Shown: positions 2,661-56,274 of the stretch, one piece after another
Position numbering within the stretch: position 1 is the stretch's first letter
Layout: the number at the start of each line of letters is the position of its first letter
NCBI GenBank assembly: GCA_014323545.1
Contig: CP058647.1
Span: 1,466,001-1,530,000, forward strand
From: Hyphobacterium sp. CCMP332
GTDB taxonomy: Bacteria; Bacteroidota; Bacteroidia; Cytophagales; CCMP332
Reading direction: 5' to 3'
Length of the DNA stretch: 64,000 nt
The notes under the pieces: generated by a model
Database searches by the model: none
Seen by the model: the letters and a program-made list of their open reading frames with translations, nothing else
What the model was told of the DNA's origin: nothing
Position numbers and translations under genes: made by a program

Positions 2661-2669
2661 TGGCTGAGC

Positions 2670-3938: not shown

Positions 3939-3945
3939 CTTTAAT

Positions 3946-5508: not shown

Positions 5509-5530
5509 TTTCTTTTCAAAAAACCCTCTC

Positions 5531-5650
5531 AGTATGGAATATTTCCAAATGCAAGACTTGTATCAGGTCTCAACTATGAAATTTGGAAAAATCCAGGCTC
5601 AGCAGATTTATAATTATTTGTAATGCTAAAAGAGGAAATACCTCCATACT
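5531..5650 (-). other. Structured intercistronic spacer between GH16 and MFS genes
   Basis: The 145-bp gap is the longest inside the glucan operon. It holds nested imperfect inverted repeats: an outer pair (about 5531-5546 with 5634-5650) and an inner pair (ATTTCCAAA near 5541 with TTTGGAAA near 5583). On the minus-strand transcript this could fold after the Calx-beta GH16 stop and before the porter start. There is no clear U-tract, so it is not an obvious terminator; RNA processing or stabilisation is possible. Confidence 0.4.
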
Positions 5651-5653
5651 TTA

Positions 5654-6898: not shown

Positions 6899-6934
6899 GC
6901 GACTCCCAATTAATCATGATGAATAAAAACAAGG

Positions 6935-8434: not shown

Positions 8435-8483
8435 AATATTTAATTTATAATTATTGGTTGTTTATACTTATTTAAAATTCTTC

Positions 8484-10115
8484 TTAAGGAAATAATGCAG
8501 GTCCGGGATAAAGCGTTAAAGCACCATTAGTTACATCTGCTTCTCTCTGAGAAACGGGAATCCAAATATCTTCCGGGCTAAAATTGGCAGCTTTTTCAGG
8601 TTCTGCTGTAAACAAATCTGAGCTCGCTCTTCCGGAACGAACTAAATCGTACCATCTGTCTCCTTCCAAGGCAAATTCTGATCGTCTTTCATACCAAATG
8701 GCATCAAGTAGTGTCCAGCCTTGATCGTTCATCAATTGCGAAACAGTTCTGAAATTTCCCGTATTATCACCAGGGCCTGCCGCTCTTTCCCTCACCATGT
8801 CTACAAACATTTGTGCTTCACCGTCGGATCCTGTACCTCTGTGCAATGCTTCTGCCAACATTAAAAGCACATCGGCATATCTGATTACAAATACATTGGC
8901 ATCAATGGTCAATACCGCATCACCACCATTCGGATTGGTATATTCTTTATAAATAGGATATTTTTCCTGCCAGTATCCGGTATAATCGCTTGGGTTTTGA
9001 TCTGCATCATCGATAGCCGATGAGCCACAACTATTTCCGGAAATTGTGTCTACAGCCATATTAAGCTCATCCAGTGATAAAATAGAAACATTTCTTCTGA
9101 TAGTATCATCCGCTAAGAAATGGTCGTATAAACCCTGTGTAGGCAGCATAAATCCCCAGCCTGCATTGTAAGTCGGATGATCATCACAAAGACTTCTTAC
9201 GCCACATAATTGCGCAAATACGTTACCATCAATCCAGCTGCTCGGCCAGTTCCAATTGGATGGTGATATATTTGATTGCTGGATTTCGAAAACTGCTTCT
9301 GCTGTATTATTAGCACCATAGGCGTATAGGTCACGTAAATCATCTAATAACTGATACTGTCCACTGTTAACAACTTCTCTCAGTGCATCAGCTGCTTTGT
9401 CAAATTTCTGTGTATTATCATTATCCAGATCCGCCCAGTACAAGTAAATTTTACCTAATAATGCCTGAGCAGTTCCTTTTGTTACTCTACCTTTAAAAGA
9501 TTCAGAAGTAGTAAGAGGTAAGGCAGCTATTGCTGCTTCCAGATCGCCAACCATAAACGCAAACATTTCATTCATAGTGGCCCTTGGTTGATTGTATTCA
9601 TCGGGCAATAAAATGCGATCAATAATAGGAGAAGGCCCATAATGTCTGAATGCATCAAAATGATAATAAGCTCTTAGAAATCTGGCCTCAGCTTTATAAA
9701 TTGCTACAGTTGGAGATTCAATTTCAATATTTTGCAATACCAGGTTAGCTCTGTAAATACCGGTATAGCATCTGCTCCAAATCCAATTCGTTTCGTTGGT
9801 GTTTGGGTTATTGTTAAAATCATCAAACTCCTGCCATCCGGGTTGATCGGCATTTGTGGCATCTCCTCCAGCATTTGCATTATCTGATCTTATCTCAGCA
9901 TACATAACCGGACTCACCCAAAAACCACCGTGCATGGTCCATTGCAACGGATCATAAGCTGCAACCAGCGCATTAAATGCCTGTTGCTCATTTTTGTAAT
10001 AATTTGCTTCCAAATAAGAGGCCACCGGTTCAACATCCAGTTTCTCCTCCTTACAAGCCGTCATTATCAATAGCGATAATGCCATAAGAATTTTAAATCG
10101 TATTATTCTCTTCAT
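8484..10115 (-). CDS. susD: SusD/RagB-family glycan-binding lipoprotein
   Basis: This 543-residue SusD homologue is the surface lid of the SusC channel, where it binds oligosaccharides before import. The lipobox is MTAC (Cys21). Tetratricopeptide-like helices (EARFLRAYYHFDAFRHYG) and the C-terminal RagB region (YERRSEFALEGDRWYDLVR) are diagnostic. The length is normal for the family. It starts 11 bp after susC ends, the invariant pairing of this transporter. The substrate is presumed to be laminarin-derived, from the GH16/GH3 genes downstream. Confidence 0.96.
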   Translation of the reverse strand: MKRIIRFKILMALSLLIMTACKEEKLDVEPVASYLEANYYKNEQQAFNALVAAYDPLQWTMHGGFWVSPVMYAEIRSDNANAGGDATNADQPGWQEFDDFNNNPNTNETNWIWSRCYTGIYRANLVLQNIEIESPTVAIYKAEARFLRAYYHFDAFRHYGPSPIIDRILLPDEYNQPRATMNEMFAFMVGDLEAAIAALPLTTSESFKGRVTKGTAQALLGKIYLYWADLDNDNTQKFDKAADALREVVNSGQYQLLDDLRDLYAYGANNTAEAVFEIQQSNISPSNWNWPSSWIDGNVFAQLCGVRSLCDDHPTYNAGWGFMLPTQGLYDHFLADDTIRRNVSILSLDELNMAVDTISGNSCGSSAIDDADQNPSDYTGYWQEKYPIYKEYTNPNGGDAVLTIDANVFVIRYADVLLMLAEALHRGTGSDGEAQMFVDMVRERAAGPGDNTGNFRTVSQLMNDQGWTLLDAIWYERRSEFALEGDRWYDLVRSGRASSDLFTAEPEKAANFSPEDIWIPVSQREADVTNGALTLYPGPALFP

Positions 10116-10126
10116 CGTTAATTAAA

Positions 10127-13100
10127 TTAAAACGTCACATTCAAACCCGCACCCATTGCTCTGTTCTGAGGATAAAACCCTTTATCAATACCTGTATCCA
10201 GGATCCAGCCGTTATTAGATCCAATTTCAGGATCGAAACCGCTATAACCTGTTATGGTAATAAGGTTGTCAAAGGATATATAAAATCTCGCTTTGGATAT
10301 TAAGACTTTCTCAAGAATTTTTTGAGGCAGATTATATCCAATCTGAAGATTTCTCAATCTGGCAAAACTCGCATCCTCCACATAAAAGTCTGAAGGCCTT
10401 TGATTACCATTAGCATCATTAAGAACAAGTCTTGGATACTCTCCATCCGGATTTGATTCAGACCATCGGTCTAACCAGGTATCCTGATAATTATTGTATG
10501 GAATATCCTGTCTTTCATAGACTTTATAAACATCATTTCCGATGCTCACGTTCCATAACATTCGAATATCAAAGCCTCTGTAATCTACACTGAAATTGAA
10601 TCCCATTAATATATCCGCCCATGGTTTTCCTATATCGGTTATATCCTCCTCGGTGATTTCTCCATCGCCGTTTACATCAACAAATTTAATATCTCCAGCT
10701 TCGGCATCCGGTTGAATAAGATCACCATTGGAGTTGATGTATTGAAATACTTCACTCTGAGATTTAAATATTCCATCGGTTTTATATCCTCTAAAGTGAG
10801 ATACCGGAAGGCCTTGAGTCATCCTGGTGATTGTAAAATTTCTTACCGGCCATCCATATCCTTCTATAAAGGGGTTTTCACCTTCACCGGCAACTTTAAG
10901 TGCTTCATTCCAGTTTCTGGTAAAATTCATACCAGCGGCAAAACCAATATCGTTCCATCTGTTGTTATAATTTATCGCAAATTCAATTCCGCGATTTCTC
11001 ATTTCACCGGTATTCAGAATTGGAGCATTATTACCAACAAGTCCGGGAACTACTCCTGTCATTAATAAATCTTTTGTAGTTTTTGAATAAACATCAATAT
11101 CTGTTGAGAGTTTACCACTTAGGATATCCACTTCAAGACCGATATCCCACTGGACACTTTCTTCCCATTTGATATCCGGGTTTGAAATTGCTACAGGTGC
11201 TTCTCCAAAATACTGTGCCTCATTGCCTGGCCTTCCAAATTGATAAGTGAATCTATCATCACTCACAATTGAAGTAAAGGCGAGGTTGTTGATTCTGTCA
11301 TTACCATTCACACCCCAACTTGCTCTCAACTTTACAAAATCAAATGTTGGGAAATCGAAGAAATTTTCTTTTGAAATAACCCAACCTGCAGAGAATGATG
11401 GGAATAAACCGAATCTGTTATTAGGTCCGAATTTTGAAGAACCGTCTCTTCTAAGGGAAGCCGTAATGAGGTATTTCTCATCAAAATTATAGAGTACTCT
11501 ACCGAAATAACTTTGAAGTACTTCAGTTACTAATGCATTACCGTAATTCTGATCTGTAGTGTCTACACCGGCATCAATGTACCACCAGTTCGGGTTAAAC
11601 TGCTGTGATTGAGGAATATTCTGTCTTGATCCTCCTGCAAACTCACCATTTCTTTCTCTGTAAGACATACCAAGGATCGCATCAATTGAGTGAAATTTGA
11701 TCTTCTTTGAAAATGACAGAAAGTTTTCCCATCGAATGGTATTTTCAGAATAATAACCCTGAAAAGCTGTATTGTTTGGGTTCTGAAAATCCGAACGGAA
11801 GAAATAGGTTGGCGTAAATGAATTGTCATAGCTATACAAAATATCAGCTCCTACATCAGATCTAAATTTTAACCATTCAACCGGGCTTACTTCTGCGTAA
11901 ATATTACCTTGAAGTCGATTGGTTCTATTTCTGTTATTTGTAATGAATGTTCTTGCAAATGGATTGATGTACTCTTTTCTCACATAAGGTGAAATTGCAT
12001 ATCCATATGTGCTGTCATTATAAGCAGCATTAATAGGTGTAATTGGATCGTAATTAAAAGCGTCGGCCAATACAGAACCAAAAGCATTGTTTTCGGGTAC
12101 CGTTTGTCTTTCAGTATGAAGAATAGATAAATTCTGACCCAACATCAAATACTTATTTGCATAAGAACTGGAATTTAGTCTGGCTGTATACCTTTCAAAA
12201 TTTGACTTATCACCACCAATAACTCCGTCCTGATTCCAATATCCAAAGCTGAAGAAATATGAGTTTTTCTCAGTCGTTCTTCCAACAGAAAGGTTGTGAT
12301 TCATAGTTGTTGCGGGACTTACCACTTCTTCCATCCAATCAATATTCCTCGGTGCCTGTCCTATTTCAGGAAATGTTGGATCCAAAGTTGAAAGTGCATT
12401 AGAGTTTTCAAATTTTTCACGAATGGCTTTGACATAATCATCGGAGCCCATCATTTCAGGCAATCTCCAAGGGCTGGCCGTACTACCAAAACCATTGTAC
12501 TCAAAAGTGGCTTTGTCGGAGTCTCCTCTTCTGGTTGTTAGTATAATTACACCATTCGCACCTCTTGCTCCGTAAATTGCTGTAGATGCTGCATCTTTTA
12601 ATACCTCTACCGACTCTACATCATTGGGGTTGAGGTTTGAGATATCATCTACAACCAAACCATCAACTACATACAATGGATTATTATTCCCATTTGTACC
12701 AACTCCCCTGATGACTATGGATTGTGCCGCACCCGGTTGACCTGAAGCAGGAGCAATATAAACTCCACTAACCTGTCCTTGCAGTGTTTGCTCAACTCTT
12801 TGAAAGTTCAAGCCTTCAATTTCTTCTCTGCCTACACTGGATATAGCACCTGTAGAAACACTTTTCTTTTGTTCACCATATCCAATTACTACAACTTCCT
12901 CAAGTTGAACAGCATCATCTTTTAAATAAATATCAATTGTGGTTCTGCTTCCTACCTTAACAGACTGTGTTTTATACCCTATAAAAGAAAAGACTAACAC
13001 ACTGTTTGAGTCCTGAACAGTAATTGTATAATCACCATTAAAATCAGTAATGGTACCATTGACCGTTCCTTTTTCAAGGACACTTGCACCAGGCACTTCG

Positions 13101-13213
13101 CCATCATCAGAAGTGACGTTTCCTTTAATTTCTATTCCTTGGGCTAAAAGCTTTGATGGGATTAAAAGGATAATTATCCACAAAGCTAAATTTAGTGTAG
13201 AGTTTCTCATCAT
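10127..13213 (-). CDS. susC: SusC/RagA-family TonB-dependent outer-membrane transporter
   Basis: This 1028-residue SusC-type transporter imports oligosaccharides across the outer membrane using TonB energy. After a signal peptide ending near LLAQG come a carboxypeptidase-regulatory-like domain (about 25-105), a TonB box region (EEVVVIGYG), a plug domain with the SusC-typical VVDGLVV and GANGVIILTT segments, then a beta barrel ending in NVTF. It heads the minus-strand glucan operon. No TAnnTTTG promoter is found directly upstream, which fits activator-dependent expression through the repeats at 13281-13335. Confidence 0.96.
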   Translation of the reverse strand: MMRNSTLNLALWIIILLIPSKLLAQGIEIKGNVTSDDGEVPGASVLEKGTVNGTITDFNGDYTITVQDSNSVLVFSFIGYKTQSVKVGSRTTIDIYLKDDAVQLEEVVVIGYGEQKKSVSTGAISSVGREEIEGLNFQRVEQTLQGQVSGVYIAPASGQPGAAQSIVIRGVGTNGNNNPLYVVDGLVVDDISNLNPNDVESVEVLKDAASTAIYGARGANGVIILTTRRGDSDKATFEYNGFGSTASPWRLPEMMGSDDYVKAIREKFENSNALSTLDPTFPEIGQAPRNIDWMEEVVSPATTMNHNLSVGRTTEKNSYFFSFGYWNQDGVIGGDKSNFERYTARLNSSSYANKYLMLGQNLSILHTERQTVPENNAFGSVLADAFNYDPITPINAAYNDSTYGYAISPYVRKEYINPFARTFITNNRNRTNRLQGNIYAEVSPVEWLKFRSDVGADILYSYDNSFTPTYFFRSDFQNPNNTAFQGYYSENTIRWENFLSFSKKIKFHSIDAILGMSYRERNGEFAGGSRQNIPQSQQFNPNWWYIDAGVDTTDQNYGNALVTEVLQSYFGRVLYNFDEKYLITASLRRDGSSKFGPNNRFGLFPSFSAGWVISKENFFDFPTFDFVKLRASWGVNGNDRINNLAFTSIVSDDRFTYQFGRPGNEAQYFGEAPVAISNPDIKWEESVQWDIGLEVDILSGKLSTDIDVYSKTTKDLLMTGVVPGLVGNNAPILNTGEMRNRGIEFAINYNNRWNDIGFAAGMNFTRNWNEALKVAGEGENPFIEGYGWPVRNFTITRMTQGLPVSHFRGYKTDGIFKSQSEVFQYINSNGDLIQPDAEAGDIKFVDVNGDGEITEEDITDIGKPWADILMGFNFSVDYRGFDIRMLWNVSIGNDVYKVYERQDIPYNNYQDTWLDRWSESNPDGEYPRLVLNDANGNQRPSDFYVEDASFARLRNLQIGYNLPQKILEKVLISKARFYISFDNLITITGYSGFDPEIGSNNGWILDTGIDKGFYPQNRAMGAGLNVTF

Positions 13214-39987: not shown

Positions 39988-42354
39988 ATGCTTAGACATA
40001 AGGCTTTTTTGGCCTTGATGTTATTGTATTCTCATTGGCTGTATGCACAGACTTTGACATTGGAAGGGCTGGTTCAGTCCTCGGATGGCGAAGCTCTGCC
40101 CGGTGCTTTACTTCATCTTCACGAACCCGATATCAATATCGCAAGTGATAATGCAGGACGTTTCAGTTTTAATAACTTAAAACCGGGCTATTATCATTTG
40201 CATGTCAATTTCATCGGTTTCCAAGAGCAGATTCTGGATATAGACCTCAATGAAAGTTTATATCTCAAAATAGAGCTTAAGGAAGCCTATAAAGAACTTG
40301 ACGAGGTAGTAGTGGAATCCAGCTTTATGAATAGTGATGTTGCTGATGCCTCACAGAGTATTCAGAATGTGAATAAGGAGCGTTTAATCAAATCCGGTGG
40401 TGGCTCATTTGTTAATTCTTTGGAAGAAATTCCGGGCATTTCGGCGATTAATACGGGCGTAGGTATTGCCAAACCTGTAATAAGAGGAATGAGTTTCAAC
40501 CGTGTATTGGTCAATGACAACGGAATAAAGCAGGAGGGCCAACAATGGGGTTCGGATCACGGGCTGGAAATCGATCAATTTAATGTTGGAAGAGTGGAAA
40601 TTGTTAAAGGGCCTGCCACCTTAATGTATGGCTCAGATGCATTGGGTGGAGCTATCAACATTTTACCCAATAGAATACCCGCTTCAGGAGAAGTAACCGG
40701 TGAAATAAGAGGTTTGTACCGAAGCAATAATGCGGCTTATGGAACATCATTTATGGTAGAAGGAGCCAAAAATTCGATTTATGCAAGAGCTCGTTTTTCA
40801 ACATTGGATTTTGCGGATTATAGAGTGCCGGCATCAGAATTTGTTTACAATACCTACCGTCTTAATATCGAAAATGAAAGACTGAAAAACACGGCGGGTA
40901 GAGAAAGAAATTCTGCCTTGACTCTTGGTTTGAGAAAATCCTGGGGTTCTGCAAATATTACTTATACCCGTTTTGATCAGAAAGCAGGCTTATTTGCCGG
41001 TGCGGTCGGTATTCCCAGAGCCTATGATCTTAATGATGATGGTGATATCAGAAATATAGATTTGCCGCGGCAACAAACGGTCCATGATAAGATTGTTTTG
41101 AATTCATTGGTGAAATTGGGCAATAACTGGCTTGAAACACAAATGGGATATCAAAACAACCATCGGGAGGAACGTACACTTCCTCATGCCCATGGCGTAG
41201 GACCAGTTCCCGAAGGTAATCTTGCTTTAAATCTGAATCTGCAAACTTTCACATTTAATTCCAGACTGCGCAGAAGGGTGAATGGAAAAACAAAAGACGT
41301 TTATGGCATTTCGGCTCAATATCAGCTAAATAAAGAGTCGGGTTATGAGCATTTGTTATCACCATTCACAGCGCTTCAAACCGGAATTTATGCAATGCGT
41401 CAATACGAGCTTTCTCCATCATTTATTTTAAGTGGTGGTTTAAGATTAGACTATGGAGAAATAAAAATAGAAGAGTTCTTTTCTCCTGTTTGGATCAACG
41501 CTGAGAGTGTAGATTATTACAGCCAGAGAAATCCTGAAATTGACAAATCCTTTTTTAACTATTCTGCATCAGCCGGTTTCTCCTGGTTTCCGGATCCCGA
41601 TTTGAATCTGAAAGTTAATCTTGGGAGAAGCTTCAGAATTCCAACGGCTGCGGAATTATCGATCAATGGTGTTCATCACGGAACTTTTCGACATGAACTA
41701 GGCAATAAGGATCTGAATTCAGAAATAGGCTATCAGGCTGATTTGGGAATTGTTTACAATAAAAAAACCATACAGTTTTCTTTTAGTCCTTATCTGAATT
41801 ATTTCAGAGATTATATCTATCTCAGTCCGACCAGTAGTTTTGGCTACACCGATCAGACCGGGAATTTGGTATTACTTCCCGAGGCCGGACAGACTTTTCA
41901 ATATAAACAGAATAACGCGCTTATTACTGGATTTGAAGTTCTGGCCGACTATCATTTCGTAAGTCATTGGCATGTGGAACTCGGTACTGAATATGTATAC
42001 AAATACAATTTAGATACAGAAATTCCATTGCCTTTTACGCCACCACCTTCCATTCATCTGGGTATGGATTACGATTGGAAATGGCAAAAAACAAGCTTTT
42101 CAATCGGTGGAAATGTGAAGAATTACTTTGATCAAAACAATGTGGACAGAAATGAAATGCCAACACCCGGATTTCAGCTATTTGGACTTTCGGCCAACAT
42201 CAATCGAAAGATTGGCAAAAATTCGATTAGTCTTTATACGCAGGTACGCAATCTTTTTGACAGAAAATATTTTAATCACCTGAGCAGGTACAGATTACTT
42301 AATCTGCCTGAACAGGGAAGAGACATAATTATAAACTTATTATACAATTTTTAA
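39988..42354 (+). CDS. TonB-dependent outer-membrane receptor, probably metal uptake
   Basis: This 788-residue receptor carries out TonB-driven uptake. A signal peptide ends near LYAQT; a carboxypeptidase-like domain spans about 22-105, a TonB box-like DEVVVESS lies near 110, the plug domain includes GPATLMYGSDALGGAINIL, and the C-terminal strand ends in LLYNF. It is much shorter than SusC proteins, and no SusD follows. The His-containing TLPHAHGVG segment and His-rich neighbours on both sides suggest a transition metal or metallophore rather than glycan. The substrate is inferred. Confidence 0.88.
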   Translation: MLRHKAFLALMLLYSHWLYAQTLTLEGLVQSSDGEALPGALLHLHEPDINIASDNAGRFSFNNLKPGYYHLHVNFIGFQEQILDIDLNESLYLKIELKEAYKELDEVVVESSFMNSDVADASQSIQNVNKERLIKSGGGSFVNSLEEIPGISAINTGVGIAKPVIRGMSFNRVLVNDNGIKQEGQQWGSDHGLEIDQFNVGRVEIVKGPATLMYGSDALGGAINILPNRIPASGEVTGEIRGLYRSNNAAYGTSFMVEGAKNSIYARARFSTLDFADYRVPASEFVYNTYRLNIENERLKNTAGRERNSALTLGLRKSWGSANITYTRFDQKAGLFAGAVGIPRAYDLNDDGDIRNIDLPRQQTVHDKIVLNSLVKLGNNWLETQMGYQNNHREERTLPHAHGVGPVPEGNLALNLNLQTFTFNSRLRRRVNGKTKDVYGISAQYQLNKESGYEHLLSPFTALQTGIYAMRQYELSPSFILSGGLRLDYGEIKIEEFFSPVWINAESVDYYSQRNPEIDKSFFNYSASAGFSWFPDPDLNLKVNLGRSFRIPTAAELSINGVHHGTFRHELGNKDLNSEIGYQADLGIVYNKKTIQFSFSPYLNYFRDYIYLSPTSSFGYTDQTGNLVLLPEAGQTFQYKQNNALITGFEVLADYHFVSHWHVELGTEYVYKYNLDTEIPLPFTPPPSIHLGMDYDWKWQKTSFSIGGNVKNYFDQNNVDRNEMPTPGFQLFGLSANINRKIGKNSISLYTQVRNLFDRKYFNHLSRYRLLNLPEQGRDIIINLLYNF

Positions 42355-42365
42355 ATAGAACAAAA

Positions 42366-43190
42366 ATGAAACATTTAATAAAATCAATATTAATTGCAGT
42401 AATGACTGTATTTTTAATTACAGCATGCGGTGATGATGATTCAGAACCACAGGATACATCAAAACCTATAATCTCGGATGTACATGTAGAAAATCATGAT
42501 CCCGGAGGTAAAATTGGATCAGGTGATGATGAAAAAGTCATGGCAGGTGAAGAAGGCGAAGTGCATTTTCAGCTGATGGACAACAGAGAACTGGGGAGCT
42601 GGAAAATTGATATCCACGATGCTTTTGATGGCCATGGGCATGGAAAAGTATTCGCAAATTATTCAATAATTCTCTCCGGAAATACTGGTGGAACAATGCA
42701 GGAAATTGAAGTTGATTTGGGAGAAATTCCTTCTGAGGCTACTGCGGGTGAGTATCACTGTATCATCAATGCCACAGATGCCGCGGGTAATAGTGCCGAT
42801 TTTGCTGAAGTGATTTTTATATTGTCAAATGGTACAGAACCACAATTGGAGCTAATTAGTCCTGATCTGGCAAATACAGAGCATATGGATAAAGGAATGA
42901 CTTTTACTATGGAAGGTACACTTACCGATGATACTGGAATTAAAAGTTTTGAGATTTACATGGAAGAGGAAGGGCACGACGACCACGACCATGGAAAAAC
43001 AGGCGAAGAAGCCATTTTATTGTTTGATAAAGATGATTTTGGAGACAATGTCCTTTCATTTGATCTTGCAGAAGCCGGTCAATTGACAATTCCTGCTGAC
43101 ATGGAAGACGGTAATTATTATATCAAATTTGTTTCAGGTGATTCCGATGGCAATACGATGATTGAGAAATTTGAGATTCACATTGAATAA
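42366..43190 (+). CDS. His-rich DUF4625-type lipoprotein
   Basis: This 274-residue lipoprotein has lipobox ITAC (Cys21) and an acidic tether. Two related Ig-like halves follow (about 35-155 and 160-274), each carrying a His cluster: HGHGK near 89 and GHDDHDHGK near 202. The arrangement resembles DUF4625 proteins as I remember them. The clusters are good candidates for metal capture at the cell surface, handing metal to the TonB receptor 11 bp upstream. A strong terminator follows, so the cassette of three genes ends here. Confidence 0.75.
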   Translation: MKHLIKSILIAVMTVFLITACGDDDSEPQDTSKPIISDVHVENHDPGGKIGSGDDEKVMAGEEGEVHFQLMDNRELGSWKIDIHDAFDGHGHGKVFANYSIILSGNTGGTMQEIEVDLGEIPSEATAGEYHCIINATDAAGNSADFAEVIFILSNGTEPQLELISPDLANTEHMDKGMTFTMEGTLTDDTGIKSFEIYMEEEGHDDHDHGKTGEEAILLFDKDDFGDNVLSFDLAEAGQLTIPADMEDGNYYIKFVSGDSDGNTMIEKFEIHIE

Positions 43191-48346: not shown

Positions 48347-48382
48347 GACTTTATTTTGCATGTAATTAGGTCCTGGCTTCCA

Positions 48383-49705
48383 ATGAACTATCGTAAACCA
48401 TTCATTCAGTTTTCCATACTGGTTTTAACCTTCCTTTTTATAAATGCCTGTAATAAAGCACCAAAAAAAGAGCTTTCTGGTACTATAGAAGAAGAAATTA
48501 TAGCCGAACAGGTGCCCGAGCCGCAATATTTATATGGAATTCAGATCGATTCTTTTGAAGTTAAAAAAGACAAGGTCAAACGAAATCAAAATTTATCTGA
48601 AATACTCAATCCCAGAAACGTTGACTATAAAACCATAGATCAGTTGGCCAGAAAGTCAAGAAAAATATTTGATGTCCGGAAAATTAAAACCGGCAATCCA
48701 TATACGCTCCTATGCGATAGAGACTCGGGTGCATCAGCAAAATTTATGATTTATGAGAAAAACCCAATTGAATACGTGGTATTTGATTTAAGGGATTCCA
48801 TTACTATTTACGAATCGAAAAAACCGGTAGACACCATTCGAAAAAGCTTTACCGGTGTGATTTACAATTCGCTTTATATGACCATTTTGGAAAATGGGGG
48901 CAATATTCAATTGGTAAATGCCCTTGCCGAAATGTATGCATGGCAAATTGATTTCTTTCGAATCCAGAAAAACGACAAGTTTAAAGTCATTTACGATGAA
49001 TTATTTGTGGACGGTGAATCTGTAGGTCTCCACAAAATTCTGGCCGCACAATTTGAACATTTTAACGATAATTTCAGCGCTTATTATTTTCACCAGGACG
49101 CAGAGCACGACTATTTTGATGACAATGGCGAAAGCCTGAGAAAGGCATTTTTGAAAGCTCCATTAAAGTATTCTAGAATTAGTTCAAAGTACACCATGAG
49201 GCGATATCACCCGGTACAGAAAAGATATAAGGCTCATTTGGGAACCGATTATGCTGCACCACAGGGCACTCCCATATATGCCGTTGGAGATGGTGTAATA
49301 GCGGAAGCCCGTTACAAAAAATACAATGGTAATTATGTTAAAATCCGCCACAACAGTGTGTATTCCACTCAGTATTTACACATGTACAAGATCAAATCGG
49401 GTATTAAACCGGGCAAAACAGTTAGGCAGGGTGATGTGATCGGATATGTGGGCAGTACTGGTCTGGCTACAGGGCCACATTGTTGTTTCCGATTTTGGAA
49501 AAACGGACATCAGGTCGATCCATTCAGACAAAAAATACCCCCATCAAAACCCGTTGCGGAATCAAATATGGAGTCATTTAAAAAGATTCAAAAAAAGTAT
49601 AAAAAGCAACTCAATAAGTTAGAATATCCTAAAGAAGATATCATTATTTGGGATAGCACGGATGCCCAAATAAGCATGCAGTCATCATTCAGACCCTATC
49701 TCTGA
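48383..49705 (+). CDS. M23-family peptidoglycan endopeptidase lipoprotein
   Basis: This 440-residue envelope peptidase probably cleaves peptidoglycan cross-links. ATG 48383 gives a lipoprotein signal ending INAC; a TTG frame from 48356 is less likely. The N-terminal half includes OapA/LysM-like regions (about 50-250), followed by the M23 domain from about 275: zinc ligands in HLGTDYAAPQG (His and Asp) and the QYLHM motif. The architecture resembles MepM/YebA. It overlaps the convergent lipoprotein gene by 10 bp. Confidence 0.9.
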   Translation: MNYRKPFIQFSILVLTFLFINACNKAPKKELSGTIEEEIIAEQVPEPQYLYGIQIDSFEVKKDKVKRNQNLSEILNPRNVDYKTIDQLARKSRKIFDVRKIKTGNPYTLLCDRDSGASAKFMIYEKNPIEYVVFDLRDSITIYESKKPVDTIRKSFTGVIYNSLYMTILENGGNIQLVNALAEMYAWQIDFFRIQKNDKFKVIYDELFVDGESVGLHKILAAQFEHFNDNFSAYYFHQDAEHDYFDDNGESLRKAFLKAPLKYSRISSKYTMRRYHPVQKRYKAHLGTDYAAPQGTPIYAVGDGVIAEARYKKYNGNYVKIRHNSVYSTQYLHMYKIKSGIKPGKTVRQGDVIGYVGSTGLATGPHCCFRFWKNGHQVDPFRQKIPPSKPVAESNMESFKKIQKKYKKQLNKLEYPKEDIIIWDSTDAQISMQSSFRPYL

Positions 49706-50544
49706 ACCTTTATTTCTAAGGTGCCAAAATTACCCAGCGTATCGCTAAAGTTTCTCAACTGTATAAGACCTCTTTTATTTTCTTCACTTAAAAAATAAAA
49801 GGTACTAATACTACTTATGGAATCAATGTAACGTCTTGTTGGGATACTGTCGATCGCTACAAGTGGCCCGTCATTATTAAGGGTACTAAAACTCTCGCTA
49901 AATATTCCGCGATCAAACCTGGTGTTTTTTCTTGTTGAAAAGGAGGACAGTTCAGCAATCAGGCTATCGTTGCCGGAACCAACATTCGGGCTTAATAGGG
50001 CCCAACTCAAAATAGAATCACGATACAGAATAAAATCTATCATTTCAGGGTTTTGTAAGGCTTCCTGAATCGTATAAACTTTCAAATCTTCGAGAGAAAT
50101 ACAATTGCCAAAATTAGAATTGTTCTGATCTCCAAATATGCTTGTGACCGTGTCAATTTTTTCGGCTACTTTGTATTCGTACATGGCCTCATCCGACAAA
50201 AGGTTATTGTCAAGTATTCTAAAAGACAAGATTGCCGTATCGCCCGAATTCTCTGTGCTGTCTATTACATAATAAAAACCTATAAACTGGCTGCTGGCAT
50301 TTTTAAAGGTAGTCTCACCTATCCTAAGAACGGGAAAATTTCCAGTAACGTGATCTACTTCAAGCGTATTGAGGCCATTGATTGCGCTTAAGGTAAGCTG
50401 AAAAAAAATACTGTCATCTTTTACAAAATATTCCTGGTCTGGACTTGAATCAAGACGAATATTGGGACCGAGGTCCATATCATTTGTGTCTTTGCAAGAA
50501 TAAAATACAAATGAAAATGATATGAACACAATTAAATTTTTCAA
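49696..50544 (-). CDS. Hypothetical lipoprotein, divergent member of tandem family
   Basis: This 282-residue lipoprotein has lipobox FYSC (Cys17). It is the most diverged and last in transcription order of four related lipoproteins. Its middle part (DQNNSNFGNC...YTIQEAL, and ALLSPNVGSG) lines up with the QSNSNIGGFF...STLSEAN and TLFSPVDPD parts of its neighbours. The other regions are Ig-like. No enzyme motif is seen. Confidence 0.72.
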   Translation of the reverse strand: MKNLIVFISFSFVFYSCKDTNDMDLGPNIRLDSSPDQEYFVKDDSIFFQLTLSAINGLNTLEVDHVTGNFPVLRIGETTFKNASSQFIGFYYVIDSTENSGDTAILSFRILDNNLLSDEAMYEYKVAEKIDTVTSIFGDQNNSNFGNCISLEDLKVYTIQEALQNPEMIDFILYRDSILSWALLSPNVGSGNDSLIAELSSFSTRKNTRFDRGIFSESFSTLNNDGPLVAIDSIPTRRYIDSISSISTFYFLSEENKRGLIQLRNFSDTLGNFGTLEIKVQR

Positions 50545-50582
50545 ATTTTAATCATTGAATTTTAAATTGATTATATATGAAT

Positions 50583-51779
50583 TTAATCTACTATCTTAAT
50601 ATCAAATTCGATACTACCGTTATTCCCCGTTACAAGGTTTCTAATTATCAATATCGCTTTTAAGCCCAGGGCTGTTTCAATAAGCACCACATCTCCTACC
50701 GCCAATTGATTGGCTTTTGTTCCTGAAACCAAACTTTCATCTATCTCCTGGGCTGTAATTGTTGAATAGTCTTTTGCGCTTTTTTGAATTTTTGTGTTAA
50801 ACCTGATAAACCAGTTGTTCAGAGCGCCTCCAAAAAGACCATCGGTATCCGGGTCAACCGGGCTAAACAATGTAGGTCCATTGGTTGCACCATTATAATA
50901 GAAGATTTCTACAGCTTCACCATTGGAGGCATTGGCTTCTGATAAAGTCGATACCTGTACTTGTCTTGCTAGAAAAAACCCACCAATATTGGAATTGCTT
51001 TGGGCTCCGAGAGTAATTCCTTTGTATTCTGTAAAAACAGGGATATCTGCTGCTGTGACCTGCCAATCTACGTTTACAATTGTACCTTTTTCATCACTGA
51101 TCTGAAATGAATAACTATAATCACCTTCAATATTTGGAACGGGTACGCCGGAAATATGTGCGGTAAAAAATGAATCATTGGGAACGTCATTTTCATTAAA
51201 GCCATTCAAGGCCAGGCCATCGTTTAATATTGACCAAGTATCTAATTTGTAAAACCCTTTTGTTGCTGTAATGGAAATATCAAAAGTGGTTCCTATGGCT
51301 AAAATTGTGTCCATATACACCGTAGAATCCGTGATATTTAAGCTTAAGTCAGCATTATCCGGAATGACATCTTCCAAAACTGTAATCGTCCAGCTTGTTT
51401 CAACAGAAACCCCATCAATGTCTTTTATACTCAGGATGTAATTGTAATCGCCGGCAGAAAAAGGAACTTCAATATTTTTAACGGATTCAGTGAAATTGTT
51501 AAAATCGGATACCGGGACATTTGAATAATTGTCGATTATATTGTTATCCAAACTGAGCGACCAGGAAGCCAGTACTGACTTTCCTTTGCTTGCTGAAAAA
51601 AGAATATCAAAACTCGCACCACCCATTAATGTATCTTTTCCATAAATGGTCGAGTCGGTAATAAGGAGGCTAATACTTGGGTTGCTGTTGGCCATATTTC
51701 CGGAGGGGCTATCGTCATCGGAACAAGCGAAAATTATGAGTACCAGGCTAAAAAAAAGGAAAATTTGTCTTATCATCAT
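50583..51779 (-). CDS. Ig-module lipoprotein, tandem family member 3
   Basis: This 398-residue lipoprotein has lipobox IFAC (Cys19). It is built of two Ig-like modules (about 33-135 and 142-245; each with a TDST motif, an ASKG/TKGF turn and a Trp-containing SWSL or TWSI strand) and one C-terminal domain (about 250-398) with EIFYYNGATNGPTLFSP. Module order is the same as in the neighbouring gene. Surface or periplasmic binding is possible; no function is known to me. It lies 15 bp after the 400-residue paralogue. Confidence 0.75.
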   Translation of the reverse strand: MMIRQIFLFFSLVLIIFACSDDDSPSGNMANSNPSISLLITDSTIYGKDTLMGGASFDILFSASKGKSVLASWSLSLDNNIIDNYSNVPVSDFNNFTESVKNIEVPFSAGDYNYILSIKDIDGVSVETSWTITVLEDVIPDNADLSLNITDSTVYMDTILAIGTTFDISITATKGFYKLDTWSILNDGLALNGFNENDVPNDSFFTAHISGVPVPNIEGDYSYSFQISDEKGTIVNVDWQVTAADIPVFTEYKGITLGAQSNSNIGGFFLARQVQVSTLSEANASNGEAVEIFYYNGATNGPTLFSPVDPDTDGLFGGALNNWFIRFNTKIQKSAKDYSTITAQEIDESLVSGTKANQLAVGDVVLIETALGLKAILIIRNLVTGNNGSIEFDIKIVD

Positions 51780-51794
51780 AGCATTAAAATAAAA

Positions 51795-52997
51795 TTAGTA
51801 AACCACTTTAAGGTCGAATGTAATACTACCATCATTTCCTGTGGCAAATGAGATCACTTTACCCATTCTTTTGATACCTGCTTCAGTTTCAAAAACGAAT
51901 ACATCATCAGCAGCCAATTGATTGGCTTTTGTTCCTGAAACGCTTGCAGTAGCAACATCATTAGGCGTGGCATTGTCAAAATCTAAAGAAGAAGACTTTT
52001 CTATTTTGGTGTCATTTTGAGTTGACCATGCACCTACAGCACCACCGAAAAAAGAACCAGCATCAGGATCAGTTGGGCTGAACAAAGTAGGACCATTAGT
52101 TGCTCCATTGTAGTAGAAAAGATCTACATCTGCACCATTAGAAGAATTGGCTTCGGATAGGAAATATACCGTTCCATCATCGATTTTAAGGAAACTTCCA
52201 AATGAAGTGCTAGACTGGGCTCCTAATTGAATATTATTGAATTCTATGAAACTGTTTGGGGCCTCGGCAGTGATTAACCAAGATACAGAACCCATAACTC
52301 CATCAAAACTTTTTACTTGAAATGTGAATTGGTAAACTCCCGCGTTATTAGGCACTTTTATATTTGTAATAGGAATTGTAAAATTATATTCATCAGGGAC
52401 ATCAAGTTCATCAAAAGCAGAAAGTGAAATACCATTTCTTAGAATTGACCATGTTTGCATATCCCTATTTCCTTTAGAAGCAGACACTAAAATACCAAAG
52501 GTAGTGCCTGTATTAAGAGTAAAATCAGAAGAAATAGTGGAGTCCGTAGCGATCAAACTAACTACAGGACCAATTGGAATTGAATTATCTTCTTCTACAA
52601 CGATCAACACACTATTCTCAACAACTATATTGTTTTTGTCTTTTAGACTAATGGTGTATAAATAATTCCCTACAGTTGGCGGTGTTTCAATGTCGCTAAT
52701 TACTTCGGTAAAATTTGAGGGGTCGCTCACTGGTACATCTATAAAGTCAGGTAATAATGATTCATTTAATGACAATGACCATGAAATCAATTCAAAATCA
52801 CCTTTTCTACCTGAAAATGCGATATTGAAATGACTACCTAATTTAACTGTATCACTGTAAGATACCGTACTATCTGTCAAAATTATATTTAGAGTGGGTA
52901 CTAAACTGACAGGACCTGAAGGACCACTGTTATCATCGGAACAAGCTATAAAAAGAAGGGCAATTAAAGCAAAAAGTTTAATTGGAAAATTTCTCAT
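51795..52997 (-). CDS. Ig-module lipoprotein, tandem family member 2
   Basis: This 400-residue lipoprotein has lipobox FIAC (Cys19), two Ig-like modules (about 30-140 and 145-245) and a C-terminal domain (about 250-400) nearly identical to that of the following 291-residue paralogue: DLFYYNGATNGPTLFSP is the same and so is nearly all of the last 110 residues. The DNA in that part is also very similar, so a recent duplication or gene conversion is likely. It is cut off from the upstream family member by a terminator. Confidence 0.77.
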   Translation of the reverse strand: MRNFPIKLFALIALLFIACSDDNSGPSGPVSLVPTLNIILTDSTVSYSDTVKLGSHFNIAFSGRKGDFELISWSLSLNESLLPDFIDVPVSDPSNFTEVISDIETPPTVGNYLYTISLKDKNNIVVENSVLIVVEEDNSIPIGPVVSLIATDSTISSDFTLNTGTTFGILVSASKGNRDMQTWSILRNGISLSAFDELDVPDEYNFTIPITNIKVPNNAGVYQFTFQVKSFDGVMGSVSWLITAEAPNSFIEFNNIQLGAQSSTSFGSFLKIDDGTVYFLSEANSSNGADVDLFYYNGATNGPTLFSPTDPDAGSFFGGAVGAWSTQNDTKIEKSSSLDFDNATPNDVATASVSGTKANQLAADDVFVFETEAGIKRMGKVISFATGNDGSITFDLKVVY

Positions 52998-53011
52998 AGC
53001 ATAAAAATAAA

Positions 53012-53041
53012 AAAACCCCGAGGATTACTCTCCGGGGTTTT
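53012..53041 (-). terminator. Terminator between first and second tandem lipoprotein genes
   Basis: An 8- to 9-bp stem (53012-53020 with 53033-53041, core CCCCG/CGGGG) is followed on the minus strand by a long U run (plus-strand A-rich 53003-53015). It lies 18 bp after the 291-residue gene. Confidence 0.8.
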
Positions 53042-53059
53042 CTATCTGAAAAAATAAAA

Positions 53060-53935
53060 TTAGTTAACTACTTTAAGGTCGACAGTAATGCTACCGTCAT
53101 TTCCTGTAGCAAGTGAGATCACTTTACCCATTCCTTTGATACCTGCTTCTGTTTCGAAAACGAAAACATCATCAGCAGCCAATTGATTGGCTTTTGTACC
53201 TGAAACGCTTACTGTAGCAACATCATTAGGTGTAGCATTGTCAAAGTCCAAAGTTGTAGACTTTTCAATTTTAGTGTCGTTTTGAGTTGACCATGAACCT
53301 ACAGCACCACCGAATAAAGATCCTGCATCAGGATCAGTTGGGCTAAATAAAGTTGGTCCGTTAGTCGCTCCATTGTAGTAGAATAAATCTACATCTGCTC
53401 CATTAGAAGAGTTAGCCTGAGCAAGGAACAATACGGTTCCGTCATCAGCTTTAAGGAAACTTCCAAAAGCAGTACTTGACTGTCCACCTAACTGAACATT
53501 ATCAATTTCAGTAAATGCCGCAGCATCTTCCGCTGTAACTACCCAAGATACAGAACCTGTTGCTCCGCCATTGTCAGTTATCTGGAAAGTATATTCGTAT
53601 GCACCTGCAGTACTAGGTACCGGTATATCAGAAACAGGTACAGTAAATGCTGAGTTGTCAGGTACATCAAGACCATCAAAATTAGATAGAGCAATACCGT
53701 CTCTTAAGATTGACCATGTATCCATATTTCTGTCGCCTTTAGAAGCAGATACTAAAATTCCAAATGAAGAACCAACAGTAAGGGTTACATCACCGGAAAC
53801 TGAAGAATCAGTAGCGATTAGGCCAACCACAGCGCCTTTTGGTGCCGGATCTTCTTCGTCATCACCACAAGAAGATAAAAACAATACACCTGCGATCGCA
53901 AGCATAGATAACATGTAATTCATTAACTTTTTCAT
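53060..53935 (-). CDS. Ig-module lipoprotein, tandem family member 1
   Basis: This 291-residue lipoprotein, first in transcription order, has lipobox LSSC (Cys23), one Ig-like module (about 35-135) and the shared C-terminal domain (about 140-291; DLFYYNGATNGPTLFSP, SVSGTKANQLAADDV). Its single Ig module best matches the second module of its neighbours. It has a consensus promoter and a strong terminator of its own, so it is probably the most highly expressed of the four. Confidence 0.78.
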   Translation of the reverse strand: MKKLMNYMLSMLAIAGVLFLSSCGDDEEDPAPKGAVVGLIATDSSVSGDVTLTVGSSFGILVSASKGDRNMDTWSILRDGIALSNFDGLDVPDNSAFTVPVSDIPVPSTAGAYEYTFQITDNGGATGSVSWVVTAEDAAAFTEIDNVQLGGQSSTAFGSFLKADDGTVLFLAQANSSNGADVDLFYYNGATNGPTLFSPTDPDAGSLFGGAVGSWSTQNDTKIEKSTTLDFDNATPNDVATVSVSGTKANQLAADDVFVFETEAGIKGMGKVISLATGNDGSITVDLKVVN

Positions 53936-53976
53936 ATTGATATTAAATTTAATTTTGTTTCAATTCAAAAGGGCTG

Positions 53977-54007
53977 CAAATATAAACTTTTTAAGATGTT
54001 TTAGCAA
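53977..54007 (-). promoter_or_regulatory. Promoter of the tandem lipoprotein genes
   Basis: On the minus strand TTG (54007-54005), a 20-bp spacer and TATATTTG (53984-53977) match the Bacteroidota consensus. The leader to the ATG at 53935 would be about 35 nt. Confidence 0.78.
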
Positions 54008-54102
54008 TCTGAGACTATTTTTAAAGAATATTTAATTGATTTTTAGATGTCTCTTTTTGCAATAATCTATTTCTTAAATTTGCGCCTTCAATTCATTCAA
54101 AA

Positions 54103-56274
54103 ATGCGATATACCAAGCCGATATATTTTCTAATTACAATAATCACATGCTTCACCCTACCTTCCGAAGCTCAAAAAAAGAAATTTGATCCCGGGAATAT
54201 TTTTGTCAACCCTGCCATAAGAGTAAAAACAGTCACATCTATCAATTGGATGAAAGACGGAAAGAATTACACTTCAAAGTCCAATAACAAAGTCATTCAA
54301 TACAATACCAGCTCAGGTGAAGAAGTAGTAACGCTTTTCGACGGAGACGAGCACAAAATCAGAATCAATGATTATTCCTTGAGTGCCGATGAAAGTCAAA
54401 TACTTCTTGAAACAAATAAGAAGAAAATCTATCGCAGATCGTATACGGCTGAATACTACATCTACGATTTAGAACAGAAAAACCTCACCAAACTCTCGGA
54501 TCAGGGGCCACAGCAATATGCCACATTTTCACCTGATGGAAGCAAGGTAGCATTTGCCAGAAACAACAATCTTTTTTACAAAGACCTGGCAGCAAATGAG
54601 GAAATACAAATTACTACCAATGGTGTAATAAATAAAATTATAAATGGTACCACCGATTGGGTTTATGAGGAGGAATTTGCCTTTGTAAAGGCATTTGAAT
54701 GGTCGCCAAAGGGGGATAAAATTGCATATTATGAGTTTGATGAAACCAATGTCCCCAGATACAATATGCAATTATGGGACAGCCTTTACCCGAGTGATTA
54801 TGTTTATAAATATCCAAAGGCCGGAGAGAAGAATTCCGATATTTCCATTTATATCTATCATTTAAAAAATAAGTCGAAAGTAAAAGCCAGTATGGATGGT
54901 CGTGTGGATTTTTATATCCCCAGAATGCAATGGACAGCGAATAACGATATTCTATCACTGATTCGGCTTGATAGATTACAACAAATCTTTGAAATTGTTC
55001 ATATCGGTGCCAACAGCGGCATGTCGCAAATAGAACTGCTGGAAAGACATAAGCAGTATTTTGACATTAATTTCTGTGATGATCTTTATTATCTGGAAAA
55101 CGGTAAGGAGTTTATCTATTCTTCAGAACAAAGCGGCTACAAACATTTTTGGATTTACAATACCGAAAATAAATCTTTGGATGCCATCACCAAAGGCAAA
55201 TGGGAAGTGGATGAGCTCATAGGAATTGATGAAAAATCGAAAAAATTGTACTTCACTTCTACCGAAGACAGCCACCTTGAGAGACAATTCTATGTTATTG
55301 GCTTTAATGGAAAAGGTAAAACAAAACTTAGCAATGGAGAGGGCTGGCACAGTATAGATATGAGCGATGATTGTGCATTTTATATTGACAAATATTCAAA
55401 ACCGGGAATGCCCCCAAAAATCAGTTTATACAATTCCGCAGGTAAAATAGTCAAGGTATTGGAAGACAATTCAGAGGTCAAAAAAACGATGGATTCATTT
55501 GATTGGATTGATAAAGAATTTATCAGCATGAACATCTTCGATTCGGTTGAATTGTACGGATACCTAATGAAACCGAGCAATTTTGATTCTTCTAAAAAAT
55601 ATCCGCTGATGATGTTTCTGTACGGTGGTCCGGGTGATCAGAAAGTGACCAAGACCTGGGATGGAAGCTCAAGGGAACTCTATAATAAAATGCTCGTTCA
55701 AAATGGATATGTAGTTGCTTGTTTTGACAACCGCGGAACCGGAGGCAGAGGAACAAAATTTAAAAAAGTAACCTATAAGGAATTAGGAAAATACGAAACA
55801 ATAGATCAGGTTGAGATTGCCAGAAAATTGGGTGAAAAATCCTATATCGATGAAAAAAGAATCGGTATCTGGGGCTGGAGTTACGGTGGATTTATGTCAA
55901 CTTCCTGTTTGTTTAAAGGCAATGATGTGTTCAAATTGGCCATTGCTGTAGCTCCGGTAACTAATTGGCGATTTTATGACAATATTTATACAGAGAGGTA
56001 CATGCAAAGGCCAAAAGACAATGCCTCGGGATACGATGATAATTCTCCCATAAATTTTGCCGACAGCCTCAAAGGAAAATATCTTCTGATACACGGTACC
56101 GCCGATGATAATGTCCATTTTCAAAATGCTGTTGAACTCCAGGAAAGGCTCATCAAATTGGGAAAACAATTTGATTCATTTTATTATCCGGGCAGCAATC
56201 ACAGCATTAATACCGGAGGAGCCAATGTCCATATTCACACGCTCATGCGCAATTATATTATTAATAATCTTTAA
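54103..56274 (+). CDS. Dipeptidyl peptidase IV-type serine peptidase, exported
   Basis: This 723-residue S9B peptidase removes X-Pro or X-Ala dipeptides from peptide N-termini. A signal peptide ends near PSEAQ. The beta-propeller domain (about 40-480) contains the substrate-binding double Glu in WVYEEEF (190-191). The hydrolase domain carries Ser593 (GWSYGG), Asp668 (GTADDNVH) and His700 (NHSI). TAAATTTG at 54075-54082 may be its -7 box. It leads a run of four plus-strand genes ending in cytochrome c. Confidence 0.94.
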   Translation: MRYTKPIYFLITIITCFTLPSEAQKKKFDPGNIFVNPAIRVKTVTSINWMKDGKNYTSKSNNKVIQYNTSSGEEVVTLFDGDEHKIRINDYSLSADESQILLETNKKKIYRRSYTAEYYIYDLEQKNLTKLSDQGPQQYATFSPDGSKVAFARNNNLFYKDLAANEEIQITTNGVINKIINGTTDWVYEEEFAFVKAFEWSPKGDKIAYYEFDETNVPRYNMQLWDSLYPSDYVYKYPKAGEKNSDISIYIYHLKNKSKVKASMDGRVDFYIPRMQWTANNDILSLIRLDRLQQIFEIVHIGANSGMSQIELLERHKQYFDINFCDDLYYLENGKEFIYSSEQSGYKHFWIYNTENKSLDAITKGKWEVDELIGIDEKSKKLYFTSTEDSHLERQFYVIGFNGKGKTKLSNGEGWHSIDMSDDCAFYIDKYSKPGMPPKISLYNSAGKIVKVLEDNSEVKKTMDSFDWIDKEFISMNIFDSVELYGYLMKPSNFDSSKKYPLMMFLYGGPGDQKVTKTWDGSSRELYNKMLVQNGYVVACFDNRGTGGRGTKFKKVTYKELGKYETIDQVEIARKLGEKSYIDEKRIGIWGWSYGGFMSTSCLFKGNDVFKLAIAVAPVTNWRFYDNIYTERYMQRPKDNASGYDDNSPINFADSLKGKYLLIHGTADDNVHFQNAVELQERLIKLGKQFDSFYYPGSNHSINTGGANVHIHTLMRNYIINNL

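Follow-up and report, generated by a model that had tools for sequence, protein, structure and literature searches.

Surface lipoproteins of the SusE/SusF type consist of a stalk and a glycan-binding domain and are encoded downstream of SusC/SusD. The surface lipoprotein HmuY is paired with the receptor HmuR, and PMC12578637 counts RagAB and HmuYR among the experimentally confirmed complexes of a barrel with a surface lipoprotein. BtuH2, also a surface lipoprotein, carries immunoglobulin-like (Ig-like) domains and a B12-binding head, and for the BtuH head PMC8941943 reports no known structural homologue. DUF4466 (PF14725) is represented by the crystal structure 4ei0, of Parabacteroides merdae PARMER_03218. 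Here we compare with these systems four adjacent lipoprotein genes, M1 to M4, from a stretch of 64,000 nucleotides of Hyphobacterium sp. CCMP332 (order Cytophagales; contig CP058647.1, positions 1,466,001 to 1,530,000, referred to throughout as the window), whose genome is a single contig of 3.33 Mb. The C-terminal domain that these proteins share is predicted to have a fold common to HmuY and DUF4466, and where the sister genus has a single copy this genome has four.

The first-pass annotation had placed four tandem paralogous lipoproteins at 49696-53935, and their open reading frames (ORFs), coordinates and strand are borne out. All four ORFs are complete and run head to tail in one direction on the minus strand, in the order of transcription M1 to M4, with intergenic gaps of 62, 15 and 38 bp:

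53060-53935, minus strand: M1, lipoprotein of 291 amino acids, signal peptide with Cys23; Ig-like module at 53525-53854, C-terminal domain of predicted HmuY/DUF4466 fold at 53063-53524
51795-52997, minus strand: M2, lipoprotein of 400 amino acids; Ig-like modules IgA at 52590-52919 and IgB at 52260-52589, C-terminal domain at 51798-52259
50583-51779, minus strand: M3, lipoprotein of 398 amino acids; IgA at 51375-51710 and IgB at 51045-51374, C-terminal domain at 50586-51044
49696-50544, minus strand: M4, lipoprotein of 282 amino acids with a TTG start; diverged Ig-like module at 50158-50490, diverged C-terminal domain at 49699-50157

Structure models were made for M1, both at full length and for the C-terminal domain (the head) alone. 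The AlphaFold model of the isolated head reached a predicted local distance difference test score (pLDDT) of 91.8 and a predicted template modelling score (pTM) of 0.87, and the full-length model, built from seven sequences, a pLDDT of 77.8. Foldseek placed 4ei0 first for the head (E-values of 3e-5 and 7e-5), followed by 8b6a (E 0.003), and VIA-align, used as a second pass over the Foldseek matches, again gave 4ei0 as the top entry, with a Z score of 17.0 and a deviation of 2.4 Å over 142 residues. Behind it came an uninterrupted block of eight entries, 6ewm (10.3), 3h8t (10.1), 6r2h (10.0), 8b6a (9.2), 3u22 (8.7), 4gbs (8.6), 6eu8 (8.6) and 8b61 (7.9), below which the rows are unrelated and start from 4.2. 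HmuY is named in the titles of four of the eight (6ewm, 3h8t, 3u22 and 6eu8); the remainder, 6r2h (PinO), 8b6a (BfrB), 8b61 (BfrC) and 4gbs (BF2707), we take to be members of the HmuY family, PinO, BfrB and BfrC presumably falling within the HmuY hemophore family PF14064. Models that lack a clear match usually find a best Z of 7-8 with VIA-align, and because such a score is common, support for an HmuY-type fold comes from the block of entries from one family and the gap beneath it. At full length, M1 aligned with 4ei0 at a Z of 16.9 over 238 residues spanning both domains. The predicted models of M1 show the two-domain arrangement of 4ei0 and, in the head, the HmuY fold; the deviation of 10.5 Å over those residues suggests that the two domains are probably placed differently relative to each other in the two proteins. 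A sequence profile of the M1-M4 family searched against the PDB also returned 8b6a as its top match (E 0.0005, mainly through the N-terminal region, with the head contributing +4.3 bits) and 4ei0 at E 0.0018. The models thus predict a link between DUF4466 and the HmuY hemophores through the fold of the head, and the earlier statement that the shared domain had no assignable function is narrowed to that extent, the structure prediction proposed for it having now been run. Single-sequence searches of the PDB yielded interferon (for M1) and kinesin (for M4), which we regard as chance matches, and the full-length Foldseek search with M1 was filled by multi-domain and Ig-like chains.

The C-terminal domain is common to all four proteins, as had been noted at first sight: YYNGATNGPTLFSP is exact in M1, M2 and M3, and the diverged M4 carries ILYRDSILSWALLSP at that site. 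A search of the genome with M2 found M1 at E 2e-126 and M3 at E 1.8e-97, values which put the likeness of M1-M3 beyond chance, and a tree of 39 sequences grouped M1-M3 as one clade (100/100). M4 is not listed when M1 is used as the query within the genome. A profile built from 19 sequences and containing no window protein matched M4 over its whole length (276 residues, 73 bits, E 1.1e-19, with E-values computed for 98,000 sequences) and its C-terminal domain alone at E 8e-9, which places M4 in the same family as M1-M3. The same profile found the copies of the two sister-genus genomes (G001 at 1.5e-15 and G002 at 7e-14), to which M4 is the closest of the four window proteins, and the DUF4466 protein of genome G058 (a 237-bit protein) over nearly its whole length at E 1.1e-9. 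Against Pfam, M4 exceeds the DUF4466 cut-off (27.3 vs 25 bits) within profile positions 105-205 of 307 only, and matches to DUF4466 at E 0.1 were obtained for 3 of 23 family members. NCBIfam has no family name for M1-M4, and Pfam and NCBIfam together give no consistent one.

The Ig-like modules number two in M2 and M3 and one in M1, as first reported, and one also in M4. The suggestion that these modules had been swapped is not supported. In a tree of 12 modules, half of them from the window and half from relatives, M2 and M3 have their outer modules paired at 98/98. These fall in a 90/92 group with the M1 module and the two inner modules, the order of which three the tree does not separate. 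Pairwise identities agree with this, although one of the contrasts is only modest: IgA-IgA and IgB-IgB of M2 and M3 are each 41% identical, as against 25% and 39% crosswise, and the M1 module is closest to IgB of M2 (59%) and of M3 (47%). Since the outer modules pair within the M1-M3 module group, the tree indicates that the extra module arose inside this lineage, without swapping, and that its duplication or loss involved the module as a whole.

Near-identity of the M1 and M2 ends in protein and strong similarity in DNA had been taken to reflect recent duplication or gene conversion, and here the analysis of synonymous sites upholds the earlier reading. The tracts concerned are:

53051-53350, minus strand: homogenised 3' end of M1, probably through gene conversion; 300 nt with 90% identity to 51786-52085
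51786-52085, minus strand: 3' end of M2, partner of the M1 tract at 90% identity over 300 nt

The tract reaches 9 nt beyond the stop codon, and the two C-terminal domains share 86% of their residues and 84% of their nucleotides, with 0.67 synonymous substitutions per site (dS). The proportion of synonymous differences (pS) between M1 and M2 falls from 0.66 upstream of M1 residue 198 to 0.30 from that residue on (the last 94 codons); a contrast of this size at the best breakpoint was reached in 1 of 3000 permutations and, with the break fixed at the domain boundary, in 126 of 20000. A cruder test, which compared codon identity where the two residues agree, gave a weaker result (reached by 335 of 5000). 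Because the synonymous difference drops in the last 94 codons, gene conversion or unequal exchange is the simplest reading and a probable one. The synonymous divergence is thus uneven. For the five other pairs of C-terminal domains dS is at least 1.6 or saturated, and over codons 176-200 of M1 and M3, where 20 of 25 residues are identical, pS is 0.79; with synonymous sites near saturation around the motif, the sharing of YYNGATNGPTLFSP by M3 and M1 indicates protein-level conservation and not recent copying.

Relatives were sought in 98 genomes of the order Cytophagales, the window genome included. An initial scan of the genome contigs had found none. With M1 as the query, matches were obtained in 18 of the 98, and with the family profile in 73, many of them covering only the signal peptide and Ig part. 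Full-length matches (at least 200 of 293 profile positions, E no greater than 5e-18), counted from the match list, occur in 33 of the 98, a figure that takes in the window genome as well as every genome from which a profile row was drawn, M4 itself being such a row. In the window genome the family is confined to the M1-M4 locus, the other profile matches covering at most 125 N-terminal positions at E 1e-5 or weaker. Both sister-genus genomes hold one copy each in the same place as the array, adjoining the same genes in the same order (dipeptidyl peptidase IV (DPP-IV), a small lipoprotein, SCO1 and cytochrome c, the last two identified in the window by Pfam). Copy number is therefore not fixed among relatives, and the array is probably a local expansion from a single-copy locus to four genes. 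Tandem pairs of the family also occur in three further genomes (G071, G017 and G037).

The gene neighbourhoods were surveyed in 31 of the 32 other genomes with full-length matches (all but G050), over stretches of no more than 1.5 kb per side in 11 of the 31. A DPP-IV homologue stands head to head with the family gene in six of these (G001, G002, G008, G012, G017 and G061) as well as in the window, seven genomes which span five families (f1, f7, f11, f15 and f16). A short gap or an overlap of reading frames separates the pair in all seven, and in G001 the longest frames overlap by a few bases. In the window the elements concerned are:

53936-54102, no strand assigned: 167 bp between the divergent M1 and DPP-IV genes, possible shared control region
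54103-56274, plus strand: DPP-IV-type S9 peptidase (Pfam DPPIV_N and Peptidase_S9), head to head with M1

A different context is found for the family gene in f22, where all three full-length genomes (G041, G069 and G096) carry it after a FadL-type porin (Pfam Toluene_X). Between the two lies a GDSL-type lipoprotein in two of them, whereas in G096 the place is taken by a pair of shorter ORFs, of which the first has no Pfam match. In the f22 loci L090, L092 and L094 the FadL-type porin, the GDSL-type lipoprotein (present as two ORFs in L094) and the family gene stand in a row. The porin matches FadL, TbuX and a similar outer-membrane protein, and the row is possibly a lipid-handling cluster or one resembling the beta-barrel assembly machinery (BAM). 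Full-length DUF4466 proteins, of which three were found among overlapping samples of 98 and 295 genomes, have yet another setting: each gene is preceded by SusC, SusD and a small lipoprotein gene, in that order, and followed by a lyase gene. The loci, in which Pfam identifies every SusD and one of the SusC-type receptors (the other two receptors were recognised by eye), are:

L105, 4843-12665: SusC/SusD locus with DUF4466 as its fourth gene
L111, 2358-13227: SusC/SusD locus with DUF4466 as its fourth gene
L112, 1604-15441: SusC/SusD locus with DUF4466 as its fourth gene

The lyases of these loci are assigned by Pfam to Alginate_lyase, Hepar_II_III_C (below the cut-off in one locus) and Lyase_8 (PL8). 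Given that all three lie in SusC/SusD-lyase loci, DUF4466 may be a glycan-binding surface protein.

By eye, each of the four window proteins has an N-terminal signal peptide followed by a lipid cysteine, and among the six residues that follow this cysteine five are acidic in M1, two in M2, three in M3 and two in M4. PMC12578637 gives as the criterion for surface lipoproteins of Bacteroidota that two or more of these six residues be acidic, and the export signal of such proteins is described in PMC5080379. Because acidic residues follow the cysteine in all four, M1-M4 are probably exposed on the cell surface. Motifs of the D-S/T-hydrophobic O-glycosylation type number nine in M4, four in M3, three in M2 and none in M1.

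Having computed the paralogy, architecture, predicted fold, synteny and uneven synonymous divergence of these proteins, we favour, with moderate confidence, the explanation that M1-M4 are locally expanded surface lipoproteins which capture a ligand other than heme; surface exposure, ligand binding, delivery and any link to DPP-IV are what we infer. The lipid anchor with its acidic export signal would hold the proteins on the outside of the outer membrane, their Ig modules, one or two in number, would act as spacers setting the reach of the head, and the HmuY/DUF4466-fold head would bind a soluble non-heme ligand and pass it on at the cell surface, in the manner of HmuY with heme, SusE/F-type proteins with glycans and BtuH-type proteins with B12. 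Peptides would be the first candidate class, because of the head-to-head DPP-IV gene, and acidic glycans the second, because full-length DUF4466 proteins sit in SusC/SusD loci. In evolutionary terms, a single-copy locus would have given rise to four genes, with M1-M3 forming one clade, a second Ig module in M2 and M3, and a later homogenisation of the M1 and M2 ends.

A number of observations weigh against this explanation. The M1 model had seven sequences as its input, and apart from 8b6a the HmuY-type rows of the Foldseek search have E-values of at least 0.048 and are mixed with folds of the START/PR-10 type. An hhalign comparison between 20 C-terminal domains (out of 23 rows) and 13 HmuY sequences (out of 18 extracted) gave a probability of 32% over 32 columns, which is not significant, so the case for HmuY is a structural one. 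Using hmmscan against Pfam at E 1, PF14064 (HmuY) is not listed for M1-M4, nor DUF4466 for M1-M3, and in the 39-sequence tree M4 joins the sister-genus copies weakly (82/17) and on long branches. A shared fold does not in itself establish a function. As to context, a DPP-IV homologue is missing from the examined stretch in 25 of the 31 other genomes, the window array, unlike DUF4466 proper, has neither a TonB-dependent transporter nor a SusC/SusD pair next to it, and with a FadL-type porin beside the f22 gene the context fixes no single ligand.

The predicted fold of the head would also suit true HmuY homologues that capture heme, particularly as ligands vary among HmuY relatives: PMC6200708 gives His134 and His166 as the axial heme ligands of HmuY and, according to its authors, two methionines as those of Tfo. 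The C-terminal domains of M1-M4 provide neither pair, since none contains a histidine, methionines number 1, 1, 0 and 1 and cysteines 0, 0, 0 and 1, leaving M3 with none of the three residues, and no histidine, methionine or cysteine is common to 55% of 39 family members in the alignment columns occupied in M1. With no histidine and at most one methionine per domain, heme ligation of the HmuY type is unlikely. Moreover, no receptor gene adjoins the array (the closest one stops at 42354, some 7 kb short of M4) and the window genome contains no PF14064 match at E 0.001, so that we consider a hemophore role very improbable. The sister-genus genomes G001 and G002 (L035 and L047) carry PF14064 HmuY matches, which are missing from the window genome. 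Somewhat less remote, yet still doubtful, is the idea that M1-M4 are variable surface antigens or adhesins, the array varying the cell surface through module change and gene conversion. Tandem paralogues with differing numbers of Ig modules, a homogenised M1/M2 tract and four copies as against one in the sister genus are what such a system might look like, but the modules are not swapped and, because synonymous divergence is high or saturated outside the M1-M2 tract, exchange appears to be infrequent. Besides the single direct tract of M1 and M2, no inverted repeat of at least 30 nt was found; 26 inverted pairs of at least 12 nt, counted without a shuffle control, are short, imperfect and mostly far apart, and the 25 listed are 71-100% complementary. 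Neither search gave a strong sign of a phase-variation device.

We give about the same low weight to the possibility that M1-M4 are accessory or structural surface lipoproteins which bind another protein, for instance in outer-membrane assembly, and not a nutrient. The Bacteroidota BAM, as presented in PMC12578637, uses a FadL homologue together with surface lipoproteins, among them one with an Ig-like domain, and the three f22 homologues resemble that arrangement in having a FadL-type neighbour, in two cases across an intervening GDSL-type lipoprotein. By reading, however, no FadL-type gene adjoins the window array, and a sequence search of the PDB with the f22 GDSL-type lipoprotein found nothing at E 1, a result of little weight as the BAM entries in that PDB set were unchecked. 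BAM membership of the f22 neighbours was considered and is not shown, given that the porin matches FadL and TbuX and the lipoprotein nothing at that threshold. Finally, the adjacency of DPP-IV may be a relic of ancestral gene order with no functional meaning, which would be compatible with the ligand-capture explanation. Its occurrence in only six of the 31 other genomes argues for this and the head-to-head arrangement with a short gap or overlap, present in all seven genomes from five families, argues against it, and we regard the matter as evenly balanced.

A bolder version of the ligand-capture explanation can be put forward, albeit as a speculation which we think unlikely: the HmuY fold would be a general capture head of surface lipoproteins in Bacteroidota, freed from heme, this Cytophagales branch of it would capture peptides under co-regulation with the divergent DPP-IV gene, and the array of four genes, with its one or two stalk modules and an attenuating terminator, would furnish graded capture arms. 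The terminator-like element in question is:

53005-53047, minus strand: stem-loop in the M1/M2 gap resembling an intrinsic terminator, -18 kcal/mol, z -3.67, with 1 of 200 shuffles folding equally well

The U-rich 3' side of this stem-loop lies on the transcribed strand and, because it stands between M1 and M2, the M1 product may be more abundant than those of M2-M4. It is absent from the results of a simple terminator scan, which demands short loops and uninterrupted stems and which gave seven terminator-like sites vs 3.4 (standard deviation 1.9) in shuffles. A promoter scan showed no excess, with 16 sites vs 15.7 in shuffles.

The array is flanked by an M23 peptidase gene and the DPP-IV gene, with no SusC/SusD-lyase cluster, and the 3' end of M4 overlaps the convergent M23 peptidase gene (48356-49705) by 10 bases (49696-49705). 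Elsewhere in the window, a TonB-dependent receptor followed by a histidine-rich DUF4625 lipoprotein with the motifs HGHGK and HDDHDHGK (39988-43190) looks like a metal-capture pair, and a SusC/SusD locus with GH3, two GH16 and a PKD lipoprotein (390-13213) probably serves a beta-glucan such as laminarin.

For these lipoproteins of Cytophagales, to which Pfam and NCBIfam give no consistent name, the analysis supplies a fold prediction, a superfamily and ligands that can be tested. Should heads of the HmuY fold prove to serve non-heme ligands, an annotation as 'HmuY-like' should not be taken to mean heme uptake. The open-access papers searched (subscription papers were not covered) included none with DUF4466, PF14725, PARMER_03218, HmuY fold, HmuY-like fold or HmuY-like domain, none relevant for 4EI0, and none found on BtuH together with HmuY.

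Set beside the known systems, M1-M4 resemble DUF4466 and its structure 4ei0, by the prediction made for M1, in having an N-terminal beta-sandwich followed by the same C-terminal fold, with M4 above the Pfam cut-off on part of the model, but differ in that M1-M3 have no Pfam match, M2 and M3 carry an extra Ig module and the array has no adjacent SusC/SusD or lyase genes. With the HmuY family (PF14064) they share the predicted fold of the head and the character of a Bacteroidota surface lipoprotein, whereas the PF14064 match, the HmuY-type ligands and the adjacent receptor are lacking and an Ig stalk is added. The likeness to SusE/SusF is that of a stalk joined to a binding domain, and the position of SusE/SusF in SusC/SusD loci is that of the full-length DUF4466 genes, unlike the M1-M4 array, which is not beside such a pair. 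BtuH offers a further analogy: no cobamide gene was recognised near the M1-M4 array, but the Ig stalk and globular ligand-binding head on a surface lipoprotein correspond to the architecture that we propose for M1-M4.

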